From Burkholderiaceae bacterium (lineage in GTDB: Bacteria; Pseudomonadota; Gammaproteobacteria; Burkholderiales; Burkholderiaceae): a stretch of 35,639 bases of DNA. The notes under the pieces were generated by a model. It was not told the origin of the DNA and did not search any database. It saw only the letters and a program-made list of their open reading frames with translations. Shown here one piece after another: positions 2,698-35,488 of the stretch. Position 1 is the first letter of the stretch, and each line of letters opens with the position of its first letter. The translations under genes were made by a program, and so were the position numbers. The DNA is taken from positions 1-35,639 of the forward strand of contig CANCBK010000014.1 in assembly GCA_947374315.1 (NCBI GenBank), written 5' to 3'.

Positions 2698-5279
2698 ACA
2701 AGGCCCCATTTTTTAATAAACCACATCTTCATTAACTGGGTTGTTAATAAATAACAGGGGAGCAATAAAGCAAGACCAAGCCAATATAGCTGTGGCGGTG
2801 GCGTCATCTGGAATCCATCGCCAACAAGGGTGAATGGTAACACTACACCAACAGCACAAATCACCAAGGTGGTCATCACCAGGGGCCAACTTGGAACGCT
2901 TTCTTTAAATGGAATTTTTCCGGTCCTAATGACATACACAATCAAAGTCTGCGAGAGCAAGGACTCGATAAACCATCCAGTTTGAAACACAGGAGATAAC
3001 TCTGGCGTATTTGCTTTAAGCACAAACCACATAAAAGCAAATGTTAAGTAATCAAATATAGAGCTAATGGGGCCAATGCAAAAAATATATCGGGCAAGAC
3101 CACGCACATCCCAAGCCCTTGGGCTTTCTAAATACTCCGCATCCACTAAATCAGTTGGCACCGCGGTTTGAGAAAAGTCATACAACAAATTATTAAGCAA
3201 GATCTGCACAGGCGCCATTGGCAAAAACGGTAACAAAGCGCTAGCCCCCAGCATGCTAAACATATTGCCAAAATTAGAGCTTGCTGACATTTTGATGTAC
3301 TTCATAATGTTACCGAAAACGCGTCTACCTTCAATCACCCCTTGATAAAGAACCATTAAGCTTTTCTCAAGCAAAATAATATCGGCCGACTCCTTGGCAA
3401 TGTCCACTGCTGAGTCAACAGAAATGCTGACATCTGCGGACTTGAGGCCAGGACCATCATTAATACCATCCCCCAAGTACCCCACTACATGACCTTGAGA
3501 TTGCAGGACTCGAATAACCCTAGCCTTTTGCTGAGGCGTCATCTTCGCAAAAATCCCAGTGACTGCAAGCCTACTGACAAGCTGCGTGTCATCAAAGGCA
3601 TCGATCTGAGATCCCAACATCACTTGGTTGATGGGCAGCCCCACATCGCCACACACCTTGCGAGTAATGCGCTCGTTATCCCCAGTCAAAATTTTGACCT
3701 CTACCCCACAAGCTCGCAAGGCTTCAATGGCTGGCTTGGCAGATTCCTTAGGGGGATCCAGAAATGCGACATACCCGAGCAATATGAGGTCAGACTCATC
3801 AGAAATGCTGTATGGCCTATCACTCATCGATCCCTCTCGAATAGCAACAGCAATCACCCGGAATCCATCATTATTGAGTGCATCAACCACATTTTGTAGG
3901 GTGGCCTGGTGATCTTTGCCAAGTTCGATTAAATCATTTCCAACTTGAGCATATTTACATTGCAAAATAATTTCCTCTACAGCCCCCTTGCAAATCAAAA
4001 TATCTTCCTGGTTATTTCTCCGAACGACAACCGACATGCGGCGCCTCTCAAAATCAAAGGGAATCTCATCAATCTTCTGATATGTATTGGCATCATGCAG
4101 CTTTTCATGTACGTCAACATGCTTCAGAATGGCTACATCCAATAGATTTTTTAGTCCGGCTTGATAGTGGCTATTTAAGTACGCGTACTCCAAAACCCGC
4201 GCATCCTCCTTGCCGTTCACATCTATATGTTTCTCTAAGATAATTTGATCCTGCGTCAGGGTGCCCGTTTTATCGGTACACAAAATATTCATAGCGCCTA
4301 AATTTTGAACGGCGTTAAGCCGCTTCACAATCACCCGCCTCTTTGACAGGGCAATGGCACCTTTAGCCAAATTAATTGTTACCAGCATGGGCAGCATTTC
4401 TGGCGCAAGTCCAACACCTACCGCAATCGCGAATAAGGCCGCCTCCAGCCAGTCGCCCTTTACCAACCCATTAATCAGAAAAACCGCGGGAATCATTGCC
4501 GCCATCAGACGGATCATGAGCCAAGTAAAGCGATCAATGCCTTGATCAAAACTGGATTTCTTTGTCTGGGTAGTGGTCTCGCGCGCAACTTGCCCAAAAA
4601 AACTGGCATTCCCTGTTTTTAAAACCAAGGCCTCGCCCATCCCAGAAACAACATGGCTGCCCATATAAGCCAAATTCATCCAATCAAAGGACGAGGCTGC
4701 GGCCAATGCGGTGGAGAGGTGGGATTTTTCGGTGGGAAGCGACTCGCCTGTTAATGAAGCTTGATTAATAAAGAGATCCTTACTACTAATGATCCGCACA
4801 TCCGCGGGAATCAGGTCGCCAACAGAGAGGCGAACTACATCACCAGGCACAACCTGAGCCAAATCAACTTCGGATTCGATCCCGGACCGAAGTACCAGCA
4901 CTTTTGTACTGACTAACGATTGCAATATTTTCGCGGCTTTATTAGATTTATATTCCTGAAAAAATGTGAGAGAAGCAGATAAGAAAACCATCAGAGCAAT
5001 AAGAATTGCCCCTCTTTGCTCACCAGTCAAATAAGAAGTGAGCGATAAAACCAACAACAAGATAGCAAGTGGAGAAAAGAATAATTTGATGAATTGAAAT
5101 ACCGGCGATATTTCTTTCCCAAAATTAAAACGATTGGGTCCGTATGCCGCATAATTTTTTCGCCATTGCTCAAGCGATAAGCCAGAAGAGGAGGAGTTCA
5201 AATTGGCATACAGCGAAGTCAAATCTGATAAGGCCAGCTCTTTGATTGCCGATGCGGCAGTAGTGTCTTTATTCATCAT
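2694..5279 (-). CDS. mgtA: Magnesium-translocating P-type ATPase (P3B type)
   Basis: An 861-residue P-type ATPase close to the usual length of MgtA/MgtB. In order: an N-terminal cation-ATPase segment, TM1-2 at about 60-110, an actuator domain with TGES at 177-180, the PEMLP helix signature (293-297) typical of the Mg2+ group, the phosphorylation motif DKTGTLT with Asp336, the nucleotide-binding domain, GDGINDGP at 603-610, and six C-terminal helices. Known role: ATP-driven Mg2+ import across the inner membrane, usually induced at low Mg2+. The ATG at 5276 is an equally possible start; no good ribosome-binding site precedes either. The 240-bp upstream gap holds two inverted repeats (5308-5335 and 5359-5377) that could be part of its leader or promoter. 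I see no PhoP box that I can support. Confidence 0.93.
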   Translation of the reverse strand: MMNKDTTAASAIKELALSDLTSLYANLNSSSSGLSLEQWRKNYAAYGPNRFNFGKEISPVFQFIKLFFSPLAILLLVLSLTSYLTGEQRGAILIALMVFLSASLTFFQEYKSNKAAKILQSLVSTKVLVLRSGIESEVDLAQVVPGDVVRLSVGDLIPADVRIISSKDLFINQASLTGESLPTEKSHLSTALAAASSFDWMNLAYMGSHVVSGMGEALVLKTGNASFFGQVARETTTQTKKSSFDQGIDRFTWLMIRLMAAMIPAVFLINGLVKGDWLEAALFAIAVGVGLAPEMLPMLVTINLAKGAIALSKRRVIVKRLNAVQNLGAMNILCTDKTGTLTQDQIILEKHIDVNGKEDARVLEYAYLNSHYQAGLKNLLDVAILKHVDVHEKLHDANTYQKIDEIPFDFERRRMSVVVRRNNQEDILICKGAVEEIILQCKYAQVGNDLIELGKDHQATLQNVVDALNNDGFRVIAVAIREGSMSDRPYSISDESDLILLGYVAFLDPPKESAKPAIEALRACGVEVKILTGDNERITRKVCGDVGLPINQVMLGSQIDAFDDTQLVSRLAVTGIFAKMTPQQKARVIRVLQSQGHVVGYLGDGINDGPGLKSADVSISVDSAVDIAKESADIILLEKSLMVLYQGVIEGRRVFGNIMKYIKMSASSNFGNMFSMLGASALLPFLPMAPVQILLNNLLYDFSQTAVPTDLVDAEYLESPRAWDVRGLARYIFCIGPISSIFDYLTFAFMWFVLKANTPELSPVFQTGWFIESLLSQTLIVYVIRTGKIPFKESVPSWPLVMTTLVICAVGVVLPFTLVGDGFQMTPPPQLYWLGLALLLPCYLLTTQLMKMWFIKKWGLV

Positions 5280-5307
5280 ATAAATATTCTATGCTCTATA
5301 GACATTA

Positions 5308-5335
5308 CCTGGCTTGTCTAGCTAACAAAACCAGG
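5308..5335 (-). promoter_or_regulatory. Hairpin in the putative mgtA leader
   Basis: The plus-strand sequence has CCTGG (5308-5312) paired with CCAGG (5331-5335) and inside it TTGT (5314-5317) paired with ACAA (5325-5328), with a small asymmetric bulge and a 7-nt loop. It begins 28 bases upstream of the mgtA start, so in an mgtA transcript it would sit just 5' of the initiation region. Whether it folds or regulates is inference. Confidence 0.35.
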
Positions 5336-5358
5336 AATCCTAAGACGAGGCAAATGCG

Positions 5359-5377
5359 AGGTTTTAATATAAAACCT
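5359..5377. promoter_or_regulatory. Perfect inverted repeat AGGTTTT-N5-AAAACCT
   Basis: Seven-base arms (5359-5365 and 5371-5377) around an AATAT spacer, about 80 bp upstream of the mgtA start and about 145 bp upstream of the deacylase start. The AT-rich centre and position in the divergent gap suit an operator or a promoter-proximal site, but no regulator can be named. Confidence 0.4.
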
Positions 5378-5520
5378 ATAGCTAACCTCTATTGGAGAGC
5401 GTATATGTCGATTTTTGCTTGTATACGCCGAAAGATCAGGGCACTATTTGCTCTATATCAAATTCCGATAGTGGCCCTGGGTTCATACTTTAAAGCTGTG
5501 ATCAATTTCAAGGAATAAGC

Positions 5521-6447
5521 TTGCCTTCCGCCTTCATAACCCATGCAGACTGCAGTCGCCATGAGATGGGATCTTGCCATCCAGAATGCCCTGAGCGACT
5601 GAGCGCAATTAATGATCAACTGCTGATCACGGGCTACCTGAATTTCATGGATGCCTATGATGCTCCACTCGCTAGCGTTGAACAAATCAGCAGAGCGCAT
5701 TCCTCTCTATATGTTCAAGAACTAATAGCCCAGTCCCCCAAAGAAGGATATCAGCAGGTTGACCCCGATACTAGAATGAATCCTTACTCCATCAATGCTG
5801 CATTACGCGCAGCGGGAGCAGTCATCCAAGCGACCGACTTAGTTTTAGATGGCAAAGCATCTAATGCATTTTGTTGTGTGAGGCCACCCGGTCATCATGC
5901 GGAACATGATGCGGCAATGGGATTCTGTTTTTTTAACAATGTTGCTGTTGGGATTCGACATGCACTAGATGTTCGAGGCATTCAAAAGGTGGCGTTAATT
6001 GATTTTGATGTTCATCACGGTAATGGTAGCGAAGATATCTTTCGCGATGATGATCGCGTCATGATGTGCTCCATCTTTGAAAAGGATTTATATCCATTTA
6101 CCGGGGAATTTATTCCCGAAAAGAGAATGGTGAACATCGGCTTGCCAACGAGATCCAAAAGCGAGGCCTTTAGAGAAGTCGTTGAGAAGTTCTGGATTCC
6201 AGCTCTTGAGCAGTTTCAACCGGAGATGATCTATATATCCGCAGGGTTTGATGCTCACCGGGAGGATGATATGGGTAATCTAGGGCTTGTTGAAGCTGAT
6301 TATGAATGGGTCACCAAACAAATTGTTGAGTTTGCCCAACTGCATTGCCAAGGTCGCATTGTTTCATGTCTAGAGGGTGGTTATGTATTAAGCCCCCTAG
6401 CCCGAAGTGTTGCTGTGCATATTAAAGTGTTGATTGGGGCTGACTAA
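5521..6447 (+). CDS. HDAC-family zinc-dependent deacylase (AcuC/acetylpolyamine amidohydrolase-like)
   Basis: A 308-residue protein with all catalytic elements of the class I/II histone-deacetylase fold: the His dyad in RPPGHHAEH (His125, His126), zinc ligands Asp163 and His165 in DFDVHHGNG, Asp244 in SAGFDAH, and the active-site tyrosine in LEGGY (Tyr288). Bacterial members remove acyl groups from lysines or polyamines in the cytoplasm. The start is TTG at 5521: AAGGA (5510-5514) is spaced 6 nt before it, and no ATG occurs until codon 16. The stop overlaps or nearly touches the next gene, a protein acetyltransferase, suggesting translational coupling. By analogy to Bacillus AcuC and Rhodopseudomonas LdaA it may reverse acetylation made by that neighbour; acetylpolyamine or acetoin-related substrates remain possible. 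Confidence 0.85.
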   Translation: MPSAFITHADCSRHEMGSCHPECPERLSAINDQLLITGYLNFMDAYDAPLASVEQISRAHSSLYVQELIAQSPKEGYQQVDPDTRMNPYSINAALRAAGAVIQATDLVLDGKASNAFCCVRPPGHHAEHDAAMGFCFFNNVAVGIRHALDVRGIQKVALIDFDVHHGNGSEDIFRDDDRVMMCSIFEKDLYPFTGEFIPEKRMVNIGLPTRSKSEAFREVVEKFWIPALEQFQPEMIYISAGFDAHREDDMGNLGLVEADYEWVTKQIVEFAQLHCQGRIVSCLEGGYVLSPLARSVAVHIKVLIGAD

Positions 6448-21902: not shown

Positions 21903-22496
21903 TTAGATATTAGGTTTGGGCATGAGGCGCAAGTGATTGCGGATAAAGGGGATCCTACAGCATAGGAGCAAAGCCAAAATAACCGCATAAATACTGACTG
22001 TTGATAAATCATTCTTTCCCGCTTTATGCCACCAGTAATGCAGAATCACCGTACAGGCTACAAGATAAATAATGCGATGTAGCTGTGCCCAGCGGCGCCC
22101 GAGTTTTCTTTGCGCCCAATGGTTCGATGTGATTGCCAAGGGAATGAGCAAAGCAAAACTGATGAAACCCATGGTAATAAATGGCCGCTTGACTACATCC
22201 TTCAACATTGCCGTCAAATCAAATCCTTGGTCTAGCCACAGCCAGATAGCAAAATGAAGGCAGGCATAGAAAAAACTAAATAACCCCAACATTCGGCGAT
22301 ATCGAATCCAAGTCGATGAATTCGTGATCAAGCGTAGGGGTGTCATGGATAAGGTCAAACATAAAAAGACTAAAGCCCAAGTTCCCGTTGAGCGAGTAAT
22401 GAACTCAATCGGATTGGCACCCAATCCATCTGTAAAGCCCAGCCAAATCAAACGATCAAGCGGCAAGAGTGCCAGAAGAAAAATCAATGCCCTCAT
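21903..22496 (-). CDS. msrQ: MsrQ, haem-binding membrane subunit of periplasmic methionine sulfoxide reductase
   Basis: A 197-residue membrane protein with about five to six helices of the ferric-reductase-like transmembrane fold. Histidines placed for haem b are visible, notably in ACLHFAIWLWL (about 79-90), RRWAQLHRIIY and VILHYWWHKAG. MsrQ passes electrons from the quinone pool or a flavin reductase to MsrP. AAGGAT precedes the ATG. It lies downstream of msrP in the usual order, but with a 104-bp gap in which I see no terminator, and is followed by a lipocalin gene. Confidence 0.87.
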   Translation of the reverse strand: MRALIFLLALLPLDRLIWLGFTDGLGANPIEFITRSTGTWALVFLCLTLSMTPLRLITNSSTWIRYRRMLGLFSFFYACLHFAIWLWLDQGFDLTAMLKDVVKRPFITMGFISFALLIPLAITSNHWAQRKLGRRWAQLHRIIYLVACTVILHYWWHKAGKNDLSTVSIYAVILALLLCCRIPFIRNHLRLMPKPNI

Positions 22497-22600
22497 CGAA
22501 GCAAATCCTTAACCATGAATTAATAGAATTTCTTCAAATCCATACCGGTATATAGACTAGCTACCTGATCCCCATAACCATTAAACATTTGCGTTTTAAT

Positions 22601-23482
22601 CTAAGGGGCAAATACTCCTTTCGGATCACCAATCCGCCGCTCAGTCGCCTGACTCCAGCGTGGGTGGTCCACCAAAGGATTGACATTAGAATAAAAACCA
22701 TACTCCCTAGAATCAAACTGACTCCAGCTTGTCTTTGGCATTTCTTCAGTCAAGCGAATTTTAACAATCGACTTTGCACTCTTAAAACCATACTTCCAAG
22801 GCACCACGATGCGCACGGGCGCTCCATTTTGCTTTGGCAGCGTCTCACCATATAGGCCAAAGGTTAAGAGTGTCAGGGGATTCATTGCCTCATCTAAACG
22901 CAAGCCCTCACGATAAGGCCACTCAATAATCTGACTATTAATGCCAGGCATTTGCTTACGATCCGCTAAGGAAATAAATTCCACATATTTTGCAGATCCT
23001 AAAGGCTGAACCTGATTTAATAATTTTGATAAAGAATAGCCATCCCAAGGAATCACCATCGACCAGCCTTCAACGCAGCGCATGCGATAGATTCGTTCTT
23101 CCATCGGGGCTAGCTTTAATAGCGCATCGATATCTAAAGTCATTGGCTTTTTAACGAGGCCTTCAATCGATACTGTCCATGGACGGGTTTGCAAACTATC
23201 GGCATGGGCAGATGGGTCGGTTTTATCAGTACCAAACTCATAGAAGTTGTTGTAGCCGGTCACATACTTATAACTAGTGGAATCCTCTTTGGATGTGAAA
23301 TTCGGATTGGGTGTGGCAATCAATTTATCGGGAGTGGCGGCTAGGGCTTCGCGAGAAAACCACGGCGCAAGGGCTAAACCAAAAGCACCAGCAGCCGCAC
23401 TTTTAATTAGCTCACGACGACCCTCAAAAACCGCCTTAGGGGTAATTTCTTGAGAAAGCATCTTCTGATCATTTGAGGGCAT
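22601..23482 (-). CDS. msrP: MsrP, molybdopterin methionine sulfoxide reductase catalytic subunit
   Basis: I chose the ATG at 23482, preceded by AAGGAG at good spacing, giving 293 residues; the open frame goes to 23530 but without such a site. The protein has a twin-arginine signal ([15 protein letters not shown], Arg22-Arg23), the molybdenum-ligating cysteine Cys136 in MRCVEGWSM, and the oxidoreductase molybdopterin-binding domain through [17 protein letters not shown]. Known role: repair of oxidised methionines in periplasmic proteins. It is exported folded by Tat, with MsrQ as its electron donor. Confidence 0.92.
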
Positions 23483-23676
23483 AAGGGATCTCCTTGAATA
23501 AGGGATTTGAGTAATGGGGATATTAATCATTCTCCTACTCTTATCAGTTTATTGCTGAGGCAGTTAAATAGTAAGGTCAGCTCTAGTATGGGCGCACAAT
23601 AGAAACTGGTCAAATCCAATGCCCTTATTGATGGGATCGCCATGGTAGCCTCCCGCTAAATGGGCGGAGGGATAAG

Positions 23677-31706: not shown

Positions 31707-31776
31707 AGGCCAAATATTACAAGGTTGCGTCAACACGCAATTCCAACACCGGGCTCAATGTGGTCTTTTTCCTTTA

Positions 31777-31805
31777 TTGATAACGATTCTCATCTACTGT
31801 ATATT
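31777..31805 (+). promoter_or_regulatory. Sigma70-like promoter of the flavin electron-transfer operon
   Basis: TTGATA (31777-31782) is followed after exactly 17 bp by TATATT (31800-31805), each with one or two differences from consensus. Transcription would begin near 31812, giving a leader of about 35 nt before the barrel gene at 31847. Fur-box-like sites cover the -35 element and the start region. Confidence 0.65.
31779..31794. promoter_or_regulatory. Fur-box-like site 1 over the -35 element
   Basis: GATAACGATTCTCATC agrees with the Fur-box core GATAATGATTATCATT at 13 of 16 positions by count. The GATTCTCAT half is the form common in proteobacterial Fur sites. Binding would block RNA polymerase when iron is plentiful. 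Confidence 0.7.
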
Positions 31806-31821
31806 GCGAATGGTTCTCATT
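31806..31821. promoter_or_regulatory. Fur-box-like site 2 over the transcription start
   Basis: GCGAATGGTTCTCATT agrees with the same core at 12 of 16 positions. It starts 27 bp after site 1 and immediately follows the -10 element. Confidence 0.6.
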
Positions 31822-31846
31822 TACTTTATCAACCACCCTTAACAAT

Positions 31847-32761
31847 ATGACACTGACCATTAAACGAATCGCCCTCTTCGCCGCCCTGCTAGCCACAGCC
31901 CTGCATTTTTCCTTCGCCAATGCGGGTGAAGGTGCTTTTGGTTGGATCTATACCCTAGACCTTCAGCCAAAAGGAAAGCTGGAGTTTGAGCAACGCTTAC
32001 AGCTGAATAAGCAACAAGCTACAGGGTCATATAACGCATGGGCATCAAGATCTGAGTTGGAATATGGAGTCACGAATGACTTTCAAGTCGCCGGTTACCT
32101 GAATGCCTACTATGTCAATGCGAATCAAAATTACACCAATCCAGAAGCTTGCGGTGATAGCCCCACCTGCACTGGCGGACAACCTGTTCCAGGGTCACAT
32201 GATCCAACAACAGCATATAGAAAAGGTGGGGTTGAAGGTGGATCTCTAGAGGCGATTTATCGAATCACCAATCCAGTGACATCCCCAGTCGGAGTCGGAC
32301 TCTATTTAGAGCCTACGCTTGGAAAAAATAAGAATGAACTTGAGGCGCGACTATTGCTGCAGTCAAACTTTATCGATGACAAATTGGTATTAGCTGGCAA
32401 CGTTGTTGTCGCCAATGAACAATTAAAGTTTGTGGGCAATGGCAATGTTCCCGAGTCGATGATGGATTTTCTCGTGGGAGCAAGTTACCGATTTGCGCCC
32501 AAATGGTCAGGTGGTGTTGAAGCCCGTTTTCATAATGACTATTCCAGCTATAACCTTCAAAATCAAACCCAAAAAGCGACATTTGTTGGGCCGAACTTAC
32601 ATTACGCGGAAAAAGACTGGTGGGTTACGGGTGCCTGGCGTTATCAGTTAAAAGGCAACACTTGCATGGGTGATGGTACCGCCGAATGCTCCAATGCCCG
32701 CGTTTGGGATAGCCACTCCGTAAATGAATTTATTGTCAAAGTGGGCTTTCCGCTCAACTAA
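31847..32761 (+). CDS. DUF6662-like outer-membrane protein, first gene of the Fur-type operon
   Basis: A 304-residue exported protein. The signal peptide (about 1-26) ends in ANA-G. The mature part begins GEGAFGWIYTLDLQPKGKLEFEQR, recognisable by the LDLQPKGKLEFEQ block as the DUF6662 kind, and continues with alternating polar/aromatic beta strands. Two cysteine pairs (ACGDSPTC near 101-108 and TCMG/ECSN near 269-277) may form external loop disulfides. A barrel or surface role follows from this. It is the promoter-proximal gene behind two Fur-type sites, so it is expected to be made at low iron; whether it moves iron, flavin or another substrate cannot be told. Confidence 0.65.
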   Translation: MTLTIKRIALFAALLATALHFSFANAGEGAFGWIYTLDLQPKGKLEFEQRLQLNKQQATGSYNAWASRSELEYGVTNDFQVAGYLNAYYVNANQNYTNPEACGDSPTCTGGQPVPGSHDPTTAYRKGGVEGGSLEAIYRITNPVTSPVGVGLYLEPTLGKNKNELEARLLLQSNFIDDKLVLAGNVVVANEQLKFVGNGNVPESMMDFLVGASYRFAPKWSGGVEARFHNDYSSYNLQNQTQKATFVGPNLHYAEKDWWVTGAWRYQLKGNTCMGDGTAECSNARVWDSHSVNEFIVKVGFPLN

Positions 32762-32795
32762 AAGAGCATCTCGCAATCTTCAGAAAAGGGCAAGC

Positions 32796-32975
32796 ATGGA
32801 AAAGCAAAATTTATTAATGGCGGCACTCATACACCTGGTTAAGTTTCAGTCGACCCACTGCGCAACTGCGAAAGAAAGGGCTCTGATGATGTTTGAGGCA
32901 TTGTCAGAATTAAAAGAAACCAGTCCCGAACTTGAAGATCTTTGCCTTCAAGCCAATGAATTATTAGTTAACTAA
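32796..32975 (+). CDS. 59-residue hypothetical protein in the Fur-type operon
   Basis: The ATG at 32796 has AAGGG upstream and lies 34 bp after the barrel gene; the next gene starts 37 bp past its stop. The frame continues upstream to 32724, inside the previous gene, which I do not count. The protein is helical and leucine-rich with an acidic middle (ELKETSPELEDL), two cysteines (22 and 50) and no signal peptide or membrane helix, so it is probably cytoplasmic. I know no family for it. Its fixed place between exported components suggests a regulatory or assembly role, which is inference from position. Confidence 0.6.
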   Translation: MEKQNLLMAALIHLVKFQSTHCATAKERALMMFEALSELKETSPELEDLCLQANELLVN

Positions 32976-33012
32976 CTCATCCATCCCCCGCTTCAATAAA
33001 AGAAATCTAATC

Positions 33013-33567
33013 ATGTACTGGAAACCCAACCCCCTACTCATCATCGGCTTAGCCGCGGCATCAGCACCCATCATTGCGCAAGCCAAGATTTATGTATCCG
33101 TTGAGCAAGCTCAAAAAATATTGCTTCCCAATAAGTCACTCACCAAGAACCCCATCATCATCACAGATGAACTACAAGACAAAATGCGCTCAGCATCCAG
33201 CGTTCGCCAAACCTTTCATGGAGATCGCATCTGGAGAGCGGGTGACGGTAGCTGGTTTATTGTGGATGAAGTTGTAGGTAAACATGAAATGATTACTTAT
33301 GCGGTGGCATTAAGCCCATCAGGCGCCGTTACCGGCATTGAGATTCTGGATTACGTTGAATCCTATGGTTATGAGGTAGCTGAAGTGCAGTGGCGCAATC
33401 AGTTCATTGGCAAGACAGCGGCAGATCCTATTAAGCTAAATCAAGATATTCAGAATATTGGTGGAGCGACACTCTCCTGCAAGCATTTAACAGATGGAGT
33501 CAAGCGCATAGCGGTCCTTTATGACATAGCACTCAAAAATCAAGCTCAAACCCCTAAAGCAAAATGA
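33013..33567 (+). CDS. Exported FMN-binding domain protein
   Basis: A 184-residue protein with a signal peptide (about 1-24, cleavage after AQA) and an FMN_bind domain (about 80-172). The covalent flavin site is expected at Thr153 in GGATLSC, by comparison with SGATLT in NqrC, where FMN is joined by a phosphoester bond to the last Thr of S-G-A-T. Here the usual Ser is Gly and the Asp six residues before Thr is Gln, so the site deviates from the consensus. The next gene, overlapping by ATGA, encodes the flavin transferase ApbE that makes this bond. It should be a periplasmic one- or two-electron carrier. Confidence 0.85.
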   Translation: MYWKPNPLLIIGLAAASAPIIAQAKIYVSVEQAQKILLPNKSLTKNPIIITDELQDKMRSASSVRQTFHGDRIWRAGDGSWFIVDEVVGKHEMITYAVALSPSGAVTGIEILDYVESYGYEVAEVQWRNQFIGKTAADPIKLNQDIQNIGGATLSCKHLTDGVKRIAVLYDIALKNQAQTPKAK

Positions 33568-34391
33568 TTCGCTGCAAACCTCTCTTAGGCACCTTCGTTG
33601 AAATATCCACTGAAGATGGAATGGATTCATCTTATGCGATAGAGGCGGCGTTCTCAACCATTGAAAAAGTTCAGTGGCTCATGGGTTTTCATAATACCGA
33701 GAGTGAACTTTCTCAAATCAATGCCCGCTCTTATCTAGAGTCCGTTCGCATTCATTCTTGGACAGCCGAAGTACTGACAATAGCCCAAGAGATTTATCGC
33801 CAATCCAATGGGATTTTCAATTGCGGTATTGGGCATCGTCTAGTAGCAGCAGGTCTTCTCCCGAACCACTCCACCATCAATGTGGATGCATTTGGAGGGA
33901 TCGAAGACGTGTTATTTTTAGAATCAGATCTCATCATGTCTCGTTTGCCACTCTGCCTTGATCTGGGTGGTATTGCTAAAGGATATGCCGTAGATAGAGC
34001 AGTCGAGACCTTGCAAGCTTATGGTATTCGTTCTGGTTCCGTAAATGCCGGCGGTGATATGCGAGTTTTTGGTGAAGTAGCCCAAGTGATTCAAATCAGA
34101 AGCCCAAGTAGTCCTCAAGCACTCATTCAGGTGGGCAGTATGAAGCAAGGCGCTATTGCTACAAGCGGTCTTTATTTTTCAAAACGGGATACCAGTGTAA
34201 AAAGTTATATGGTCAACCCCTTAAATCAACATCACATGGAGTTTTCAGAATCCTATTCAGTGATTGCCCCTGAATGCGTCTATGCCGATGCCCTCACCAA
34301 GGTGGTGAGCATTACCGGAAATATTCATCATCCCTGTTTAGGACAATTCTCAGCTCAGGCCATGATGATTCCAGCTATGGTTACGCCATGA
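33564..34391 (+). CDS. apbE: ApbE, FAD:protein FMN transferase
   Basis: A 275-residue ApbE, shorter than the roughly 350-residue enterobacterial lipoprotein. Motifs: LGTFVEI at the start, LDLGGIAKGYAVD near 132-144, NAGGDM near 160-165 and DALTKV in the C-terminal part, all typical of the Mg2+ and FAD-binding fold. It transfers FMN from FAD to Thr or Ser of FMN_bind proteins. The start ATG overlaps the stop of the FMN-binding gene (ATGA). It has no signal peptide: the sequence starts with the domain itself (MIRCKPLLGTF). That contrasts with its exported substrate and suggests either a cytoplasmic enzyme acting before export, or a missing leader. Confidence 0.9.
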   Translation: MIRCKPLLGTFVEISTEDGMDSSYAIEAAFSTIEKVQWLMGFHNTESELSQINARSYLESVRIHSWTAEVLTIAQEIYRQSNGIFNCGIGHRLVAAGLLPNHSTINVDAFGGIEDVLFLESDLIMSRLPLCLDLGGIAKGYAVDRAVETLQAYGIRSGSVNAGGDMRVFGEVAQVIQIRSPSSPQALIQVGSMKQGAIATSGLYFSKRDTSVKSYMVNPLNQHHMEFSESYSVIAPECVYADALTKVVSITGNIHHPCLGQFSAQAMMIPAMVTP

Positions 34392-34834
34392 AAAATACTA
34401 GCCGCCTAGGAAAGATGCCGCAATGGCAAAGAAATTTCGTCCTCATTGGCATGTTGGCTTGCTCGCTCACTGGAACGGCTTATTTACTGGGTCATGAGTT
34501 TTCTATTCAGCACACTCTCTTTGGAACACATTCGATATTGATTTGGCATGGAGTGACGGCAATGCTGGCCATGCTCGCCCTAGGCTCAGTGCTGCCCTTT
34601 CATATCAAAGCTGGCCTGAAGTCCAAGCGAAAGTTGTGGAGCGGCCTAAGTCAGTTAGCGTTTCTATTTACCCTACTAGTCTCGGGCGCCCTGCTCTATT
34701 ACGGACCAGAAGAGATTCGGGATGCAGTCATCACAACCCACTGGGTGATTGGCCTTGCATTCTTTGCCATCTTTTTGCTGCATGGCGTTTATTCCAAAAA
34801 GGTTCCAGCCTTCAATGGCAATAAGGCGCATTGA
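34388..34834 (+). CDS. Four-helix membrane protein, cytochrome b-like
   Basis: The ATG at 34388 overlaps the apbE stop (ATGA); 148 residues. Four helices lie at about 17-36, 51-70, 84-104 and 115-134. Positive charges put the N-terminus, the helix 2-3 loop (KAGLKSKRK) and the C-terminus in the cytoplasm. Helix 2 has His54 near the periplasmic and His72 near the cytoplasmic face; helix 4 has His118 and His132 in the same pattern. Two histidines per leaflet is the layout of two b-type haems in a four-helix bundle. This would let it carry electrons from quinol to the FMN protein. Haem binding is an inference from His placement; no family name is claimed. Confidence 0.7.
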   Translation: MKNTSRLGKMPQWQRNFVLIGMLACSLTGTAYLLGHEFSIQHTLFGTHSILIWHGVTAMLAMLALGSVLPFHIKAGLKSKRKLWSGLSQLAFLFTLLVSGALLYYGPEEIRDAVITTHWVIGLAFFAIFLLHGVYSKKVPAFNGNKAH

Positions 34835-34894: not shown

Positions 34895-35107
34895 TTATTT
34901 ACAGCAAGAGTCTTTTCCACAAGAGTTGCCACAGGAATTCATTCCTAGAATTGAATAGGCTGGGCAGAAACGGATGATGCCCGTTGCCAAGGGGATTACG
35001 CCAAGCCAGCCCCACCAGCCAATAGTTCCATTGCCTGCGAGCGCTACTAGCACTATGCCGACAATAATTCTTAAAGTGCGATCAATACCACCAAGGTTAC
35101 ATTTCAT
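34895..35107 (-). CDS. DUF2892 small membrane protein
   Basis: A 70-residue protein of the DUF2892 type: NLGGIDRTLRIIVGIVLVAL gives helix 1 and GWWGWLGVIPLATGII helix 2, followed by RFCPAYSILGM. The tail has a run of cysteines (48, 59, 63, 68, 69) ending in CCK, suiting metal or sulfane-sulfur contact. AAAGGAG before the ATG is a strong ribosome-binding site. In E. coli the same domain is fused to the rhodanese YgaP, next to its ArsR-type regulator YgaV; here the ArsR gene is immediately upstream, 39 bp away. Confidence 0.85.
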   Translation of the reverse strand: MKCNLGGIDRTLRIIVGIVLVALAGNGTIGWWGWLGVIPLATGIIRFCPAYSILGMNSCGNSCGKDSCCK

Positions 35108-35146
35108 GTTCCACTCCTTTGAAAACGATTAACTGATTTTTGACTT

Positions 35147-35488
35147 CTACTTCTTGCAGTAATGCTTGTAAAGTAAACCCATTACAGATACGACAATCTG
35201 ACTTGATAGGGAGTAGTAAATCTGCTTTCCCTCTCTGCGCGTTTTAACCAGCTTCTCCTTGCGCAGCACAGTGAGCTGCTGAGAAAGCGTTGGCTGATGT
35301 AAATCGAGCGCCGCCTCTAACTCACCTACACACTTTTCCCCTTGGCCGATTTCGCATAACAGCATCATGCGATCCCGATTAGATAAGACCTTCATGAGTT
35401 TGCAGGCTTCATCAGCCGAAGACTGCATCTTCTTTAATTCTGCTTTAGAAATAGGCGCATTCATAGCGGAGACCAGCTCAGAGGGCAT
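35147..35488 (-). CDS. ArsR-family repressor, BigR/SqrR/YgaV-like
   Basis: A 113-residue winged-helix regulator with the ArsR core (VLSNRDRMMLLCEI, then LHQPTLSQQLTVLRKEKLVKTRREGKQIYYSL, cited here by its key residues P66, S69, H64 and R84). Cys45 in helix alpha2 and Cys111 at the C-terminal helix sit where BigR and SqrR have their persulfide-sensing cysteine pair (Cys42/Cys108 numbering in BigR). Metal-binding ArsR motifs (ELCVCDL) are absent. I therefore read it as a sulfane-sulfur sensor, not an arsenic sensor. The ATG at 35488 overlaps the upstream gene's stop by 11 bp; the ATG at 35464 would lie after it. Confidence 0.82.
   Translation of the reverse strand: MPSELVSAMNAPISKAELKKMQSSADEACKLMKVLSNRDRMMLLCEIGQGEKCVGELEAALDLHQPTLSQQLTVLRKEKLVKTRREGKQIYYSLSSQIVVSVMGLLYKHYCKK

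Follow-up and report, generated by a model that had tools for sequence, protein, structure and literature searches.

A candidate Fur-controlled, flavin-based iron-assimilation operon with an unusual ApbE-family protein in Polynucleobacter

What might a set of envelope and flavin genes behind a Fur-type promoter do for a freshwater bacterium? The question is raised by contig CANCBK010000014.1 of the Burkholderiaceae assembly GCA_947374315.1, a stretch of 35,639 nucleotides (the window, meaning this whole stretch). The original prediction saw five co-directional genes following one promoter with two Fur-type sites and read them as a periplasmic flavin electron-transfer operon. Open reading frames and site scans agree on five plus-strand genes at 31847-34834 behind such a promoter, and the frame coordinates also agree with the ATGA overlaps that were said to join the last three genes (FMN_bind to ApbE, and ApbE to the membrane protein). 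The source of the window is Polynucleobacter, a common freshwater genus: the 16 top relatives of its flavin mononucleotide (FMN)-binding FMN_bind protein are from Polynucleobacter or from Burkholderiaceae metagenome-assembled genomes, at 84-90% identity.

We consider it probable, at roughly 0.65, that these genes form a Fur-repressed, flavin-based iron-assimilation operon in which two haems b relay electrons from a membrane donor to covalently bound periplasmic FMN, which hands them to ferric iron. Iron shortage would switch the operon on, and the ApbE-family protein would attach FMN to Thr153 of the FMN_bind protein, which would work in the periplasm. The four-helix membrane protein would hold two haems b, at H54/H118 towards the periplasm and at H72/H132 towards the cytoplasm, and would supply the FMN with electrons drawn from a donor in the membrane or cytoplasm, the quinol pool being the simplest candidate. 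Reduced FMN would then reduce ferric iron, or a chelate of it, in the periplasm, leaving ferrous importers (Feo, FTR1/P19, perhaps ZIP) to take up the reduced iron, and the DUF6662 barrel encoded by the first gene would be the outer-membrane channel admitting iron species. In this scheme we infer quinol as donor and ferric iron as acceptor, as we do the covalent state of the FMN, the occupancy and sidedness of the haems and the cargo of the barrel.

Comparison with related loci bears out the Fur-type sites, the gene set, the flavinylation motif, the conserved histidines and, in relatives, a link to ferrous uptake. We found 142 stretches that matched the search pattern, 120 of which encode a relative of the FMN_bind protein, and the counts of loci given here use the best 80. 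Scored against an assumed beta-type Fur consensus, the two sites at the promoter are the only places in the 35.6 kb with at least 14 of 19 matches, and site 2 is the best place in the window. The forward score of the promoter, 15, was reached by 2 of 2000 promoter shuffles. An assumed E. coli consensus makes a weaker case: the best forward score of 13 was reached by 38 of 2000 shuffles, another place in the window (25983) scores 14, and a search allowing at most three mismatches returned no match. The promoter-like site is weak when taken alone, such sites being fewer in the scanned region than in shuffles of it (3 versus a mean of 6.1).

Two non-overlapping sites with at least 13 of 19 matches lie within 200 bases in 60/60 Polynucleobacter-type promoters (L001-L059, L064 and L068, where the barrel gene is present), a figure that measures conservation rather than independent events because these loci are related. 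As controls, 200-base stretches were taken at random from these loci; of 2215, 145 contain at least one such site and 4 contain two. Farther away, a Fur-type site reached by at most 2 of 200 shuffles was present in 16 of 23 distant promoters, drawn from 13 of the 19 distant loci and all 10 regions L100-L109 (L062, L067, L070, L073, L075 and L077 were omitted as contig ends or near-copies). On sequence, the conserved Fur boxes would place the operon in the Fur regulon.

The genes also stay together. All 80 loci have FMN_bind by selection, and the barrel gene was found in 79, ApbE in 77 and the membrane protein in 71; contig ends explain the absence of the barrel in L057, of ApbE in L059 and L064, and of the membrane protein in L042, L055, L056, L059 and L064. 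The gene order, with the barrel first and then FMN_bind, ApbE and membrane protein, is conserved across betaproteobacteria and a few other groups, with examples in Azonexaceae, Aquabacterium, Methyloversatilis, Duganella and elsewhere. A profile search for the membrane protein in 398 Pseudomonadota genomes returned 15 places in 14 genomes, with FMN_bind within about 2 kb at all 15 and ApbE at 13. The predicted five-gene set stands as a four-gene core conserved across relatives; its remaining member, a 59-amino-acid (aa) gene, is confined to Polynucleobacter-type loci (21 of the 80).

Genes for iron import lie beside the operon in some relatives, as single cases rather than as the outcome of a survey of all loci. 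Azonexaceae locus L060 has FeoB (151.5 bits) and FeoA (28.1 bits) downstream on the same strand with one gene between, and at Duganella locus L072 the operon is flanked by TonB-dependent receptor genes, no further than about 5 kb away on either side. At L105, genes for P19, OprB porin, ferritin-like, cupredoxin, FTR1, Fer4_5 membrane protein and Porin_O_P form a run that FMN_bind and the membrane protein complete and that adjoins a divergent fur gene; no ApbE was found at this cluster. The conserved Fur-type sites and the ferrous-uptake neighbours in L060 and L105 give good comparative support to the Fur control and iron role proposed earlier. The gene between the membrane protein and FeoB in L060 (7820-8689) encodes an exported protein, barrel-like by eye, with no Pfam match.

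The membrane protein had been described as a four-helix protein with four histidines suited to two b haems, and a structure prediction had been suggested as a check. The AlphaFold model (predicted local distance difference test score, 87.8) has four long helices, with diheme cytochromes among its top structural matches. Four of the eight histidines in the window protein are conserved (Table 1) and the other four are not. Eighteen of 37 relatives match DUF4405 at E <= 0.1, and the one from L103 passes the cut-off for this family (PF14358; 30.0 versus 26.7). The window protein itself gave no DUF4405 match, and neither it nor the 59-aa protein matched any Pfam family over cut-off; PepSY, NapH, MsrQ, DsbD and NQR/RNF-like membrane domains were likewise absent at E <= 1 in a Pfam search of the five gene products. 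Conserved histidines, model and family scores of relatives together support a predicted two-haem, four-helix membrane protein, as first described.

The FMN_bind protein (PF04205, 36.8 bits versus a cut-off of 22) is an exported FMN-binding protein as proposed, by its family match and hydrophobic N-terminus. Within its motif, D145, N148, G151, A152 and T153 are conserved in 78/78 sequences. Relative to D-x-x-[ST]-G-A-[ST], the Asp lies two residues further upstream, like the acidic residue of RnfG, and position 4 is Gly in the window and Ser or Ala in distant relatives. The protein of L106 has a Tat-like RRQFIK start, and the other relatives seen have Sec-type starts. The signal region begins M-x-W-x-P, which is unusual for a signal peptide and is kept in most of the relatives listed.

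The expectation of an ordinary ApbE did not hold. The fourth product matches the family well (PF02424, 134.7 bits versus a cut-off of 25.6). It begins at the ApbE domain itself, the preceding open frame is short in many loci, and hydropathy gave no signal peptide or lipobox such as would mark a periplasmic protein; over their first 40 residues these ApbEs have a median hydropathy peak of 1.17, versus 2.21 for the FMN_bind proteins. Asp285-Ser241-His257 has been reported as the catalytic triad of ApbE, H257G decreased but did not abolish the activity of the V. cholerae enzyme, and cytosolic ApbEs are known (PMC12052999). In the operon group the Asp285 position is kept in 75/75 sequences and the Ser241 position in 74/75, and the His257 position is His in 30/75, the others being Y (22), A (14), F (6), P (2) and Q (1). 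Four residues after the conserved Asp, Lys replaces the usual Thr in 75/75 and in 8/8 further distant members. That Thr is a metal-binding residue. Five other readable ApbEs, from G018, which lacks the operon, and from operon-carrying genomes, have the His and in no case the Lys, a motif seen only in the operon group. DLGGIAKG, NAGGD, the TSG Ser and the Asp285 equivalent are conserved, and from its sequence the product appears to be an ApbE-family protein rather than a canonical ApbE.

Among the other ApbEs, those of L110, L111 and L114 start without an evident signal peptide and that of L112 has a lipobox-like start, so a cytosolic ApbE would not be unique to the operon group. If the enzyme is cytosolic and its substrate exported, modification must come before export; the Tat-like start in L106 would fit flavinylation at that stage. 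In 101 genomes of the genus group, 73 have FMN_bind and ApbE no more than 1.5 kb apart, 25 have neither and 3 have one only (ApbE in G018 and G067, FMN_bind in G039). G020 and G050 have two copies of each gene; in the other 71 carriers the operon ApbE is the sole ApbE locus found and should therefore be the one that modifies FMN_bind, if FMN_bind is flavinylated.

Table 1. Features of the operon in the window (positions are those of the whole stretch; TM, transmembrane helix).
Feature	Position	Strand	Basis
Fur-type site 1, over the -35 element	31776..31794	+	15/19 to assumed beta-type consensus
Sigma-70-type promoter-like site, TTGATA-17-TATATT	31777..31805	+	consensus match only, 10/12
Fur-type site 2, covering the -10 end and beyond	31803..31821	+	16/19, better strand, assumed beta-type consensus
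DUF6662 (PF20367) outer-membrane 12-stranded barrel, 304 aa	31847..32761	+	
Small protein, 59 aa, Polynucleobacter-specific insert	32796..32975	+	
Exported FMN_bind protein, 184 aa	33013..33567	+	PF04205 match; hydrophobic N-terminus
Probable Sec-type signal peptide, residues 1-24, ending AQA/K	33013..33084	+	sequence reading and hydropathy
Flavinylation-type motif D-I-Q-N-I-G-G-A-T, T153 the expected FMN site	33445..33471	+	conservation; RnfG-like alignment
ApbE-family FAD:protein FMN transferase, 275 aa, no signal peptide (FAD, flavin adenine dinucleotide)	33564..34391	+	PF02424 match
ApbE Y215, aligned with reported catalytic His257	34206..34208	+	alignment, n=75
ApbE K246, replacing the usual Thr or Ser of the D-A-L-x-T region	34299..34301	+	alignment, n=75
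Four-helix membrane protein, 148 aa, DUF4405/cytochrome b561-like, two predicted haem b sites	34388..34834	+	
H54 (TM2)	34547..34549	+	72/72
H72 (TM2)	34601..34603	+	72/72
H118 (TM4)	34739..34741	+	72/72
H132 (TM4)	34781..34783	+	71/72, one gap

The first gene product had been called outer-membrane-like, and it matches the Pfam family DUF6662 at 36.8 bits versus a cut-off of 27, with a 12-stranded barrel resembling small channels. A TonB-dependent receptor was considered and rejected, with no plug match in Pfam and only 12 strands. In L101, L103, L104 and L105 a barrel of another kind precedes FMN_bind; it is Porin_O_P in L103 and L105, which were scanned, and those of L101 and L104 cluster with them by BLAST. 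The 59-aa gene is real, but a Polynucleobacter insert: 21 full-length copies, the window included, give a ratio of nonsynonymous to synonymous polymorphism (pN/pS) of about 0.11, indicating purifying selection, and of 252 relatives of the protein, all 120 listed are 59-78 aa long and the organisms named among them are all Polynucleobacter or beta proteobacterium CB. Where loci L001-L064 lack this gene, no more than 41 bases separate barrel and FMN_bind, apart from L015 (Polynucleobacter necessarius isolate PPGSP2), which has 133. In that locus the FMN_bind frame (6001-6093) stops early and the barrel frame (5079-5867) is shorter, and the operon may be decaying or the record may contain errors.

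Several neighbours and variants were seen. In many Polynucleobacter loci the operon is followed on the opposite strand by genes for a YgaP-like membrane protein and an ArsR-type regulator (34895-35488 in the window); neither had a match in the distant loci. An HbpS-like gene follows the operon where the membrane protein is missing, in L078 (7605-8021, scanned) and also in L075 and L077; L075, labelled Thermoflexus, is probably mis-binned, because the parts seen almost match those of L077 and L078, which are betaproteobacterial. In G150, which has a full set at L102, another barrel and FMN_bind lie at L101 (7519-9699), with a cytochrome gene in convergent orientation and no ApbE alongside. In G018, L110 (5998-10680) combines genes for a thioredoxin-like protein and DUF3570 with an ApbE that has no evident signal peptide and a gene that looks like DsbD by eye. 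The window also encodes MsrQ (178.9 bits) and MsrP (432.2 bits) at 21903-23530, MsrQ being a second haem membrane protein that serves a periplasmic reductase.

A number of observations weigh against ferric reduction for iron assimilation, for which the support is comparative throughout. Seven of the 23 distant promoters have no convincing Fur-type site (L060, which is Feo-linked, and L079, L100, L103, L104, L105 and L109). Away from contig ends, L075, L077, L078 and L079 have no membrane-protein match, and L079 has no ApbE either. The canonical flavinylation motif is not matched letter for letter in the window, and the ApbE has no signal peptide and does not keep all of the reported catalytic residues. 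FeoB is present in 55/73 operon carriers versus 3/25 non-carriers overall and in 46/60 versus 3/4 within the main clade, an association confounded by clade; we dropped it as support because FeoB presence follows clade. P. asymbioticus is reported to be unable to use ferric iron from its medium (PMC6629928), which counts only if it carries the operon. FeoB was not detected in 17 carriers (drafts may be incomplete), and an operon not tied to one importer would also suit an iron-sparing or stress-related envelope electron chain, running at low iron to another acceptor such as a thiol, methionine sulfoxide, peroxide or a protein. Fur control alone fits such a chain, and flavin carriers have been discussed as favourable in iron-poor settings (PMC8238504). 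It would, however, spend two haems, ferrous-uptake genes are neighbours in two relatives, and the organism has its own MsrPQ elsewhere in the window; we regard this explanation as unlikely.

Two other alternatives concern single parts of the operon. The variable His257 position, the Lys for Thr near the kept Asp and the missing signal peptide could mean that this ApbE is no longer a flavin transferase and that the FMN_bind protein binds FMN, if at all, without a covalent bond. We find this quite improbable, given the conserved motifs and Asp285 equivalent, the reported decrease rather than loss of activity in H257G, and an ApbE that lies beside FMN_bind in all 73 carriers and is the only such locus in 71. 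Alternatively, the FMN protein might dock in or under the barrel and reduce ferric iron at the cell surface, as a flavin conduit across the outer membrane. A barrel gene does precede FMN_bind in 79/80 loci, the sole miss being a contig end, and an unrelated barrel occupies the same place in four regions, but a 12-stranded barrel like those of small channels looks too narrow for a folded FMN domain, and the chances of this arrangement seem slim indeed. Periplasmic ferric reduction for iron assimilation is the reading we prefer. A more specific version of it, which we offer tentatively and think doubtful as a whole, is that a separate signal-less ApbE branch, with an invariant Lys and no fixed His base, flavinylates a single substrate in the cytoplasm before export, and that the loaded flavoprotein then works with an outer-membrane barrel that can be exchanged and a minimal diheme cytochrome of four helices as a ferric reductase under Fur control, which might extend to the outer membrane.

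In Polynucleobacter species carrying the operon, such a system would supply the missing ferric reduction step; for P. asymbioticus, a transcriptome paper gives only ferrous uptake as known (PMC6629928). It would give a role to DUF6662, of which there was no mention in the literature searched, and to the unnamed cytochrome family, and its ApbE makes the site of flavinylation of exported proteins directly testable. One survey removed genes without a predicted signal peptide (PMC8238504), and surveys of this type would therefore miss the operon ApbE.

The kind of machine is known, as flavinylation in iron assimilation; its combination of parts and its odd ApbE were not found described in the literature searched. 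A Bifidobacterium breve apbE mutant showed a defect only when ferrous chelators were present, and SifE, which binds FMN, is predicted to be a ferric reductase (PMC5449479). DUF4405 cytochromes encoded with apbE have already been described (PMC11334425), and the operon resembles these systems in pairing apbE with a small multi-His membrane cytochrome that has four central conserved histidines. It differs in having four transmembrane helices rather than six and FMN_bind as partner rather than the Flavodoxin_4 named there, and its Fur control and barrel are absent from the parts consulted of that source (PMC11334425). Fur-repressed PepSY-like flavinylation clusters have been tied to iron, and the PepSY-like/DUF2271/ApbE systems, such as Caulobacter CCNA_03155-03159, share with the operon Fur control, a haem membrane protein and a proposed function in periplasmic ferric reduction (PMC8238504; PMC12004947), but the window operon has no PepSY, DUF2271 or DUF4198. 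In P19-FTR1 iron assimilation an FMN_bind protein likewise serves iron uptake (PMC8238504), and FMN_bind and the membrane protein of L105 lie inside such a cluster; the window operon itself is without P19 or FTR1. With the DUF3570-ApbE-DsbD systems (PMC8238504) the likeness lies in an ApbE without an evident signal peptide, seen beside a DUF3570 gene in L110, and the operon differs from them in its substrate, its membrane partner and the active-site motif of its ApbE.

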